The translations under genes and the position numbers were made by a program. A stretch of DNA of 64,000 nt from Bacteroidales bacterium (GTDB lineage: Bacteria > Bacteroidota > Bacteroidia > Bacteroidales > Paludibacteraceae), in NCBI GenBank assembly GCA_022784645.1, contig JALFZG010000062.1, positions 1 through 64,000 on the forward strand, written 5' to 3'. Of the stretch, positions 1,432-30,509 are shown piece by piece. The number at the start of each line of letters is the position of its first letter. Position 1 is the first letter of the stretch. A model generated the notes under the pieces. That model did not search any database and was not told the origin of the DNA. It saw only the letters and a program-made list of their open reading frames with translations.

Positions 1432-1468
1432 ACAAAAAAGCGCTCCTTGTCATCACGACAGGGAGCGC
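1432..1468 (-). terminator. Intrinsic terminator downstream of the sus operon
   Basis: Hairpin GAGCGCTCC..GGAGCGC followed by T6 on minus strand. Confidence 0.7.
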
Positions 1469-1588
1469 TCATTGCCTTTCGGCTTATTTACTTTATTATT
1501 CCAAGAAACAGCTTTACAATGCAAAATCAAACTTCATCTACATTGTAAGCAAATTAGATGAATAACCAAAATCTATGTTAGTTATTTA

Positions 1589-26870: not shown

Positions 26871-26901
26871 TTTGGTATATCAAAAAAAAGCAGTACCTTT
26901 G
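26871..26901 (+). promoter_or_regulatory. Canonical promoter TTTG-N19-TACCTTTG
   Basis: Exact match to Bacteroidetes consensus; starts the small RNA candidate at ~26907. Confidence 0.8.
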
Positions 26902-26906
26902 CATCG

Positions 26907-26978
26907 TCCTAATAAAGGACTGAATTAATAGTGTTAGTAGTAAGGAATATCCGTCGAGATGACGGGTATTCTTTTTTT
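26907..26978 (+). ncRNA. Candidate ~72-nt small RNA / leader (GTCCT-AATAA-AGGAC hairpin, linker, strong terminator)
   Basis: Promoter directly upstream, 11-bp terminator stem 26945-26971 with GAGAT loop plus T7; no ORF. Confidence 0.7.
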
Positions 26979-27056
26979 CATTCGATTCAAAATTGAAATA
27001 ACCTCTTTTTTCATGATATATCCCTCATTTTCACTATACAAACAATCAATCATCTT

Positions 27057-27998
27057 ATGAAAATCGGAATCTGCATTGGTTTGCGCCAAGAGCTTCTTCG
27101 CGGTGATATGGATTTAATAATGCAAGCCAAGAAGCAATGCGACTGCTGCATTGTAGCGTCTGAGCAAGAGCAGTTGCATCACCTGAAGAAACTACTCGGA
27201 TATGACCCTATTATACGATTCGTGTCGATAGCAGAGAATGCCAATTCTCTAACGGCTGCTTCCATTGCATTCATTGAGCAGACCGCCAAACAAATTTCAG
27301 AAGAGGCTACTTTAGTGTGGTACATACGGCCAGAATGGGTAAGTCTGCTGGAAGGAAAAACGGTGATTATCGGTGGTGAGGATATGACTCCGTTTAATAG
27401 AGTAGCGGAAAAACGAAGTTGTTGTCACCGCATATTGATTACGGGTTGGGCATCAGAAGGCAAAACAACGCTTGCCCGCGATCTTGCTACCTATTTCCAA
27501 ATTCCATATATTCCAGAAGCCGCACGCGTATATATGGAGGAACATAGGTTGAAAGACGAAGAACTTACCGAAGAAGATTTTTTGGCGTTTATCCGGTTGC
27601 AAAACGAGTTGACCGATGCCACTCACGATAGCGTAATAATATCAGATACCGATAATATCACAACCTTAGCCTATACTATTTCATATGCTAGCGACCCTAG
27701 CGTAAGGGCTATTTCTGCCGATTCAATCGAAAAAATCAAACGAGAAATGCAGATATATGATTGGAAGAAAATCTATGTACTGCCACCCAAGAATACGTAT
27801 GTGAATGATGGCTTGCGGTATATGAAGCAAGCCGATTTGGAGGTGCGTAACAAAAATTTCAACTTGCTGATTCAACTGATAGAGTCGTATGGATTCCGAG
27901 ATAAAATTACCTACCTAAGAGGTGATTTTTGGGAAAACTTCGTAAGTGTAAAGCAGGATATTCTGCAGCATTTGAGCAACAACGAAGCAAACTATTAA
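27057..27998 (+). CDS. NadR-like AAA ATPase / ribosylnicotinamide kinase-type protein with degenerate N-terminal nucleotidyltransferase domain
   Basis: ITGWASEGKTTLARDLATYFQIPYIPEAARVYMEEH P-loop kinase region; N-term MKIGICIGLRQELLRGDMDLIMQAKKQCD. Confidence 0.75.
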   Translation: MKIGICIGLRQELLRGDMDLIMQAKKQCDCCIVASEQEQLHHLKKLLGYDPIIRFVSIAENANSLTAASIAFIEQTAKQISEEATLVWYIRPEWVSLLEGKTVIIGGEDMTPFNRVAEKRSCCHRILITGWASEGKTTLARDLATYFQIPYIPEAARVYMEEHRLKDEELTEEDFLAFIRLQNELTDATHDSVIISDTDNITTLAYTISYASDPSVRAISADSIEKIKREMQIYDWKKIYVLPPKNTYVNDGLRYMKQADLEVRNKNFNLLIQLIESYGFRDKITYLRGDFWENFVSVKQDILQHLSNNEANY

Positions 27999-28024
27999 CT
28001 AATGCGAAATGCATGTTGCTTAGA

Positions 28025-29245
28025 TTATGGATGCAGCAGAAGGGAGGTAATATCGAGATCGCGATGGAATTTATTCATATCCACACGTCCTTTAATTCCG
28101 TTGATTCGTCCATGATCGGAGTATTGCCAAATAGAAGCATGCCCTTTTCCGTCAGTAACAGGAGCACGATCTTCTCGATAAAGTGCTAACATGAGCGTCT
28201 CCTGCCAAAAAGCGGAAGCCAACCACCTATTATAAAAAATCTGATAAGAATACAAAACGGGACGGTATCCGAATTTTGCCTCACAAGCATCCAAAAAAAT
28301 GCTTACTTGCCGCTGCAGTTGCTCTTTGCTCCACCCTGTATTGCGCTCCACATCAAGCATCGGACGCAAGTCCATTTCTTCTTCGCGGTAAAGCTTGCAA
28401 AACCAGCGAAACTGCTCCTCGGCTGAACATTTGGTCGTAAAGAAATGATATACACCCACTCGGATACCTGCTGCACGCGCTTTGCGGATATTCTCGCGAC
28501 ACCGATCATCTGCCAAAGAATTACCCTGGCTGATTTTAATATATGCATAGTGGATGCCGGAATCATATACTTTCTTCCAATCAATTTCGCCTTGCCAATG
28601 TGACACATCTATCATATCCGGCACCGAGTTGCTATCCTCAAAATAGCGGTGACGGGGATAATGCCTGCGAATATCATCCATCGATTTTTCTGCCATTCGG
28701 ATATGTGGGAAGCTGTCTTCTTTGGCCGTACGAACAGTATGGTATCGATTAAACTGCTCCGATAAAGGCTGATCATGAGGCATACATAGGGCTGGCGATT
28801 GCCCGAAGTAAGAGCGGCAACTATCTAGACACCGCTGCAAGCTATCCGTATGATACGATTCTGGGAGAACGAGCAGCGGAATCATATCGGCAGAATCGCT
28901 GATGGCAAACGTGCGCAATTGCTGGTATTGCTCGCTCACTGTCCGGTTGGAATCAAACATTGTCCAAAAACCCACTTTCAATCCACCTTGGCGCGCTTCA
29001 GAGATACACTCGTAATACATAGAATCCAGCACCGAAGAATCCTGCGGGGCCTCATACCAAATAATGTTAACTCCCAAACTGTCAGCCAGCGGTAGCCAAT
29101 CCCTATCATCTAAGGGCGATAAAACGGCATGTACCTCATCTGCTTTTACATTCGGAAAAACGGCCCCAGATAGTAAACATATAGCAAGCAGCAATTGGCG
29201 AATACGGGAGCTAAATTCATTAATTATTCTCGTTTTCATCGGCAA
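28025..29245 (-). CDS. GH25 family lysozyme-like protein with an additional N-terminal GH25-like region
   Basis: DMIDVSHWQGEIDWKKVYDSGIHYAYIKISQG..GVYHFF..DVERN; signal peptide. Confidence 0.85.
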   Translation of the reverse strand: MPMKTRIINEFSSRIRQLLLAICLLSGAVFPNVKADEVHAVLSPLDDRDWLPLADSLGVNIIWYEAPQDSSVLDSMYYECISEARQGGLKVGFWTMFDSNRTVSEQYQQLRTFAISDSADMIPLLVLPESYHTDSLQRCLDSCRSYFGQSPALCMPHDQPLSEQFNRYHTVRTAKEDSFPHIRMAEKSMDDIRRHYPRHRYFEDSNSVPDMIDVSHWQGEIDWKKVYDSGIHYAYIKISQGNSLADDRCRENIRKARAAGIRVGVYHFFTTKCSAEEQFRWFCKLYREEEMDLRPMLDVERNTGWSKEQLQRQVSIFLDACEAKFGYRPVLYSYQIFYNRWLASAFWQETLMLALYREDRAPVTDGKGHASIWQYSDHGRINGIKGRVDMNKFHRDLDITSLLLHP

Positions 29246-30218
29246 ATTTGATTAATAACTCGAGTGATTCGCAGGTAAAACGATGCGGAGCATCCAGCAT
29301 CTTGGTTTGGAGCTTAGCTTGCGGTTGCTTTTTTCGGATTACGGTAATGGCTTCTTCTACCGATGCTAAAGGAAAGAGCGGATCGCTGGCGCCATAAAGC
29401 AGCATAAAAGGACGGTCTGCAGCCCCAGCTGCAATCTCTGGATAATCGAGCGTATCGAGCATAGGCGTGTACATAGAGTAAGCACTGGGATTGGGCAATG
29501 GGCCACCGTGAGCTTCGAGGGTCGTCATCCAATTTGCGGCAAAGCACCAAGCAACAGCTTGCTCATAAGCTGCCAACATCCATGCGCGATAAGCTCCCAT
29601 AGAGAAACCTGCCGCTCCAATCTTATTCGGGTTCACTTCCTCTCTTGATTGCAACCAATGGAAAGCAACTTTATCATCGTGCAGAATCGTGCAGAACCAA
29701 TGCTGCCCTGTGGCATTTAGATGAGTCTGATAGAATGCAGGCTGCATGACTTTGAGCATCTTATTAAGTATTTTGAGCGAATCGAGCCCTACATGCATAT
29801 CGCCAACGGGTGCTCTACGGCTACCCCAATAGAGCGCATCGGGTACGAGCACTGCATAGCCATGCGCAGCAAGCGAATCGGCCACATACGCTCCTGCATA
29901 GCATTTATTCACCCAATAGTCGGCCTGCATCCATACAGACGAGTCAGCATCTTGTAGTGGCTTCACCATTTTCTCTTTGCCTATAGTGAACCACGCCCCA
30001 TGATCGTGCAGCAGAAGTACTGCCGAACAGCCTCCTTCCGGAACGGAGTCGGGCACCAACCAATAAGCGGCCATGCTATCGGTGGCAGATAAAGGAATAT
30101 ACACTTCGCTGACGCGATAACCATCGCGCTGCTCGTAATGCTCGATTTGTACTTGCTGTTGACTGCAAGACACGAGCAAAAATATACAAAAATTTACTAT
30201 AAATGTCTGCTTTTTCAT
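29220..30218 (-). CDS. Alpha/beta hydrolase (dienelactone hydrolase-like) lipoprotein
   Basis: Lipobox LVSC; GAAGFSMGAYRAW nucleophile elbow; start set at MKKQTF. Confidence 0.8.
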   Translation of the reverse strand: MKKQTFIVNFCIFLLVSCSQQQVQIEHYEQRDGYRVSEVYIPLSATDSMAAYWLVPDSVPEGGCSAVLLLHDHGAWFTIGKEKMVKPLQDADSSVWMQADYWVNKCYAGAYVADSLAAHGYAVLVPDALYWGSRRAPVGDMHVGLDSLKILNKMLKVMQPAFYQTHLNATGQHWFCTILHDDKVAFHWLQSREEVNPNKIGAAGFSMGAYRAWMLAAYEQAVAWCFAANWMTTLEAHGGPLPNPSAYSMYTPMLDTLDYPEIAAGAADRPFMLLYGASDPLFPLASVEEAITVIRKKQPQAKLQTKMLDAPHRFTCESLELLIKFADENENN

Positions 30219-30227
30219 TCCGGCTGC

Positions 30228-30258
30228 AAAGGTACAAAAAAAATCCGAAATATGCAAA
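30228..30258 (-). promoter_or_regulatory. Promoter TTTG-N19-TACCTTTG for the hydrolase gene
   Basis: CAAAGGTA 30228-30235 and CAAA 30255-30258 on plus strand; -33 box overlaps the upstream terminator T-run. Confidence 0.75.
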
Positions 30259-30327
30259 AAAAAAGAAAGGATGTCATCTCGACATCCCAATCTTTACTTA
30301 ACCTTAAATCTAATACCATGAAAAACA
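30256..30327 (-). ncRNA. Candidate ~72-nt small RNA, apparent relative of the one at 26907-26978
   Basis: Promoter TTTG-N20-TAATTTTG (30333-30364), CATCGTG start region, terminator GGATGTC-GAGAT-GACATCC + TTTCTTTTTTTTT. Confidence 0.7.
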
Positions 30328-30509
30328 CGATGCAAAATTACTGCTTTTCTGCAATACCACCAAATATTTTTCGGAAAAAAACATCAAAATACACTAATTT
30401 TCATCATTTTGCTATTTATAGATTGCAAAATACACCTGTTTTTACGTTTTTGGGTATAAAAACAAGATGTTTCAATATTGGCTGTAAATCCTCCAAAGGG
30501 CCAAATAAA

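Follow-up and report, generated by a model that had tools for sequence, protein, structure and literature searches.

Two short promoter-to-terminator units of about 72-76 nt each lie inverted and convergent at 26.9 and 30.3 kb of the window, by which we mean the whole 64,000-nucleotide stretch of DNA that was analysed (contig C31 of the draft genome G000, 2.29 Mb in 90 contigs). This layout is real, yet the units do not form a single RNA family. Unit 2 is one copy of the published family FopS, and the explanation of the locus that we consider probable is that unit 1 is a separate lineage-specific RNA, most likely pairing with the leader RNA of the thioredoxin-rubrerythrin genes. FopS is already known, and the most interesting result is a conserved RNA complementary to it, which was reached by following the terminator core that both units share. 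The preliminary description of this DNA, in which both units belonged to one multi-copy small RNA family, is partly confirmed: this is true for unit 2, which has 5 copies in the genome, and false for unit 1, which has a different body and no FopS match. True RNA homology is thereby told apart from two look-alikes in the raw sequence, a common promoter and a terminator type of small RNAs.

Promoters and terminators of the two units

The sequence bears out that two inverted sRNA-like units stand 3.3 kb apart, as had been described; the coordinates then given left both promoters outside. Each unit is composed of a -33 TTTG, a -7 TAnnTTTG, a body of about 45 nt and a terminator with a GAGAT loop. 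The promoter of unit 1 (26871..26901, plus strand) has its -33 TTTG at 26871-26874 and its -7 element TACCTTTG at 26894-26901, while that of FopS (30333..30364, minus strand) has TTTG at 30364-30361 and TAATTTTG at 30340-30333. The same layout is seen at 23 sites of the window, and the consensus is as described for Bacteroides (PMC7366714). Judging from the sequence, both units would be transcribed.

The common 5' start claimed for the two units does exist, with GCAGTAnnTTTGCATCGT identical at 26890-26907 (+) and 30344-30327 (-), but it is mostly promoter and not RNA. TAnnTTTGCA has 23 occurrences in the window, where 3.6 would be expected, and several of these sites, the promoters of tRNA genes among them, have the same AAAAAAAAGCAG upstream plus the -33 TTTG; also, a stretch of the 5' block matches many places in every genus genome searched. 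The shared block is an ordinary Bacteroidota promoter, and RNA homology as its explanation is ruled out. The TCGT right after the block is peculiar to these two units among the 23 window sites.

For the terminators, it was correctly observed that an identical core is enclosed by different outer stems. The core GTCGAGATGAC (GTC-GAGAT-GAC) occurs at 26953-26963 (+) and 30273-30283 (-), two occurrences against 0.04 expected; by sequence and folding, it belongs to a 14-bp stem at 26942..26974 in unit 1 and to a hairpin at 30268..30288 on the minus strand in FopS. Followed by T's, it is present in the own genome only in three FopS copies and unit 1. When the pattern GTCGNGA(T)GAC plus a T-run was considered in 0.96 Mb of genus DNA, it was found in 34 FopS-antisense RNAs (and one tandem duplicate of that terminator), in 2 FopS copies, in unit 1 and at one mRNA 3' end; most of this DNA was collected around the FopS-antisense RNA, so that the share of this RNA is inflated and the near-absence elsewhere is what matters. 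The objection that the core might be a generic terminator loop seen after many mRNAs does not agree with this single mRNA end. Across the order, the GTCGNGA(T)GAC core with varying outer stems is present in most FopS copies examined, and the Rfam consensus terminators of BTnc231 and BTnc060 have GUGA loops too. Small RNAs favour terminators of the type GTC-GNGA(T)-GAC, which in the genus is almost confined to them; sharing it is no proof of common descent.

A generic mRNA terminator was mostly rejected as an identity for the core, the one 3'-UTR case being at 1449-1459 of the window. There, a terminator with the core GTCGTGATGAC (1432-1504, minus strand) lies downstream of a DUF4886 gene, and it may mark the end of an ordinary mRNA or belong to a small RNA from the 3' UTR.

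Between promoter and terminator, the likeness claimed for linker and body is not above chance (global p = 0.20 and local p = 0.52 against dinucleotide shuffles), and the alignment score of the whole units is significant only because the terminator is included. The covariance model proposed earlier was built from both units and scanned; it finds the FopS copies and the unit 1 ortholog, and the hits below these are weak and mostly units with the same terminator type.

FopS and an RNA complementary to it

Unit 2 (30255..30328, minus strand) is a full-length match to the FopS model, Rfam RF04319, with 78.9 bits against a cut-off of 56. The unstructured 5' R1/R1' seed GUGUUUUUCAUGGUAUUAGAUUUAAGG is present with the terminator after it, and the sigma-ABfr promoter and the multiple paralogs in the genome also agree with the description of FopS. 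GibS (RF04182) was rejected as an identity for unit 2, which scores 40.0 bits against a cut-off of 115 and lacks the R2 region. Five copies in the own genome are above the FopS cut-off, and three of them, each with other surroundings, encode identical RNA, which points to recent dispersal or gene conversion. Therefore the suggestion of one small RNA per target regulon is unlikely. As a side observation, the proximal promoters of the identical copies (on contigs C31, C27 and C11) are near-identical too. Copies above the cut-off exist in 132 of 151 genus genomes, mostly one to three per genome, and in 56 of 295 genomes of the order.

In B. thetaiotaomicron, the R1' seed of 14 FopS RNAs pairs with the start region of susC-type mRNAs, by which translation is blocked, and the protein RbpB counteracts this block (PMC11697453). 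By homology, susC-type glycan-transporter mRNAs would be bound at their start region by the unstructured 5' seed of unit 2 and kept from being translated; the action of FopS in this organism is inferred from this homology. The published glycan-uptake regulator is extended here to an uncultured rumen and gut family.

The conserved RNA reached through the terminator core has a body that is complementary to FopS over three blocks, which follow each other in order. This body, from CAATCTTTTTTGTACCTT to AACAGACTAATAC, is near-invariant and comes after a promoter of the RNA's own and a variable 5' stretch; the terminator has compensatory changes in its stem. The copy in the own genome lies outside the window (G000:C20:19950-20047, plus strand) and was identified by model search and by homology to the 3' half of BTnc060; further examples are L139:1451-1546, L099-L118 and L279-L297, and the named genomes with the antisense RNA of the genus are mostly gut and rumen Paludibacteraceae MAGs. 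Its segments CAAUCUUU, ACCUUAAA and CUAAUACC pair in order with AAAGAUUG, UUUAAGGU and GGUAUUAG of FopS. The predicted duplex of the trimmed bodies has -26.7 kcal/mol (z -4.6 to -5.0), and with longer ends it reaches -32.5, a value that none of the 15,984 positions of the window away from the FopS locus attains. For the 25 genomes that were examined, the predicted pairing ranges from -23 to -36 kcal/mol.

A model of the antisense RNA (model R1) gave 30 hits at the level of the order, 27 of them with the conserved body. The weak hits in G069, G304 and G451, where this body is absent, were dropped; these are also the three without FopS. The 27 genomes come from 14 families, and FopS is present in 27 of 27 compared with 67 of 295 overall, counts which are not independent as the genomes are related to each other. 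Nine distinct transitions in two pairing blocks all keep the pairing via G.U, and the few transversions break it. The pairing-preserving transitions would lend modest support to the pairing, because transitions alone keep pairing about three times in four.

From these comparisons of sequence, we hypothesize that the BTnc060-type RNA is a candidate FopS sponge across Bacteroidales. The chance that it is instead itself a target under regulation, or an unrelated RNA with a likeness to FopS target sites, is in our judgement not far short of even. The stretch CTTAAA..CTAATACC of the antisense RNA does resemble the start regions bound by FopS, and transition bias alone could account for the pairing-preserving changes. 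Such a reading has to face the separate promoter, the compensatory changes in the terminator stem, the complementary blocks along the whole FopS body, and the fact that every true hit falls in a FopS-bearing genome. In a literature search that covered few subscription papers and no preprints, no paper mentioning BTnc060 or a FopS sponge was found. As a side observation, FopS and the antisense RNA adjoin on opposite strands in two genomes (L141 on G009:C73 and L142 on G110:C13), suggesting that the antisense RNA may have arisen by inverted duplication.

Unit 1, its neighbouring gene and its possible pairing partner

Unit 1 is not a FopS member. The FopS model gives no match to it even at E <= 1 with permissive filters, and the R1/R1' seed is absent; a search with the Rfam models found no known riboswitch or other Rfam RNA that it could be. 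The RNA (approximately 26904..26978, plus strand, about 72-75 nt) consists of a 5' hairpin, a linker and the terminator, with a fold z of -4.57 and a fold that beats 200 of 200 shuffles. Among 178 genus genomes, a relative exists in one other species (G113), where the ortholog occupies the same genomic place with a FopS copy about 3.4 kb off. Over about 106 bases, counted from the -33 box through the last T of the T-run, the two species show 2 changes, and both sit in the loop of the 5' hairpin GTCCT-nnnnn-AGGAC. The flanks have diverged: little of the spacer to the next gene can be aligned, and identity is 72.6% over the region with the neighbouring gene. Because only 2 of about 106 bases have changed while the flanks have diverged, unit 1 is probably functional. 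It is a new RNA, ordinary in kind and narrow in distribution, with the same kind of promoter as FopS and the small-RNA type of terminator.

A 23-nt segment of unit 1 (26931..26953, plus strand) is complementary, with one G.U, to the thioredoxin-rubrerythrin (trx-rubrerythrin) leader RNA, which is read from the minus strand of contig C59 (G000; L087:1786-1898); the BLAST E value is 1.6e-4 for the genome. On C59 the complement has a TAATTTTG promoter on one side and a terminator on the other, and it stands upstream of the thioredoxin and rubrerythrin genes. The same leader arrangement exists in G113, with the 23-nt complement inside the promoter-to-terminator leader. The predicted duplex has -31.2 kcal/mol with z of -4 to -5, and with different choices of its ends the value lies between -31 and -37 kcal/mol; the energy does not decide the matter by itself, as window coding sequence reaches -35.4 kcal/mol with unit 1 compared with -37.4 for the trx leader. 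For comparison, unit 1 has no pairing with FopS or the FopS-antisense RNA (z +0.5 and -0.4). The segment 26931-26953 is identical in both species, and with a single relative there is no covariation with the leader to read. Most likely, unit 1, made from a promoter of the same kind as that of FopS, would pair in trans with the trx-rubrerythrin leader RNA, and any function of this pairing is an inference from sequence. The paired segment overlaps the 5' arm of the unit 1 terminator in 12 of its 14 bases; therefore pairing and termination would compete.

The gene downstream of unit 1 (27057..27998, plus strand) encodes a NadR-like AAA protein, and the stretch from the unit 1 terminator to this gene contains no further TAnnTTTG promoter. 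As a side observation, the N-terminus of the protein resembles a degenerate nucleotidyltransferase. Unit 1 may be a 5' leader or attenuator of this gene, in which transcription starts near 26904, mostly stops at the terminator and continues by controlled readthrough, the short RNA being a by-product. We take this to be quite possible, with the balance somewhat against it. In both species the gene follows 77 nt downstream with no TAnnTTTG promoter between, and gene and RNA have the same narrow distribution in the genomes searched; a search for the protein in 60 other genus genomes gave no match at E <= 1e-20, with G113, which has the locus, outside the 60. The 14-bp stem, however, makes the terminator very strong, no good alternative pairing was seen, the spacer in front of the gene lacks conservation, and no match to a known riboswitch family was obtained; the gene may also have its own non-consensus promoter.

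Two other readings survive less well than the trans-pairing RNA. The relation in the preliminary description, in which unit 1 is a paralog of FopS with a replaced or diverged body, is already largely refuted and thus very unlikely: the identical promoter extension TTTGCATCGT and terminator core in the same genome speak for it, and the TCGT and core in common would allow a chimeric origin from FopS, but unit 1 has neither a model match nor the R1 seed, its body likeness is at chance, and the core is present in an unrelated RNA too. Highly improbable is that the trx-rubrerythrin leader RNA binds the 5' arm of the unit 1 terminator and causes readthrough into the NadR-like gene; the extent of the complement along that arm and the lack of a visible separate promoter for the gene would fit, but leader binding must outcompete terminator folding, covariation is absent, and we know of no natural precedent for transcription-activating pairing of this kind, which counts against it.

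Possible sponging and the known systems

Taking both parts of the work together, we suggest, tentatively and as the rather doubtful end of our proposals, that Bacteroidales keep a dedicated conserved FopS sponge and that unit 1 and the trx-rubrerythrin leader are a second, independently evolved pair of sRNA and anti-RNA. If this is true, RNA-RNA sponging would be a layer in the control that these gut bacteria exert on glycan uptake and stress genes, and an RNA antagonist of FopS would be added beside the protein RbpB. Titration of FopS by BTnc060 is a testable hypothesis in B. thetaiotaomicron.

When compared to the FopS of B. thetaiotaomicron, unit 2 has the same model match, 5' seed, promoter, terminator and several genome copies; the differences are 14 copies there against five here, and a host that is outside Bacteroidaceae. 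GibS has the R1 seed region in common with unit 2, but its model is 142 nt long and the middle of it is absent from unit 2. The consensus terminator of BTnc231 (RF04180), GUC-GUGA-GAC, is of the type of both units, whereas the rest of that RNA is unrelated (21 bits against a cut-off of 80.4). The closest known relative of the antisense RNA is BTnc060 (RF04184), with whose 3' half it aligns (CAAUCUUUU, UACCUUAAA, CUAAUACC and the terminator), in agreement with membership of that family. By score it falls below the family: the antisense RNA of the genus has 33.7 bits against a cut-off of 228.9, and those of other families have 71-192 bits, with E down to 4e-34. On L288 and L328, the long 5' part of the RF04184 model spans the promoter seen in relatives, and this long part may be why the cut-off misses homologs outside Bacteroides. 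Finally, synthetic STAR regulators work on the same principle as the transcription-activating pairing considered above for unit 1.
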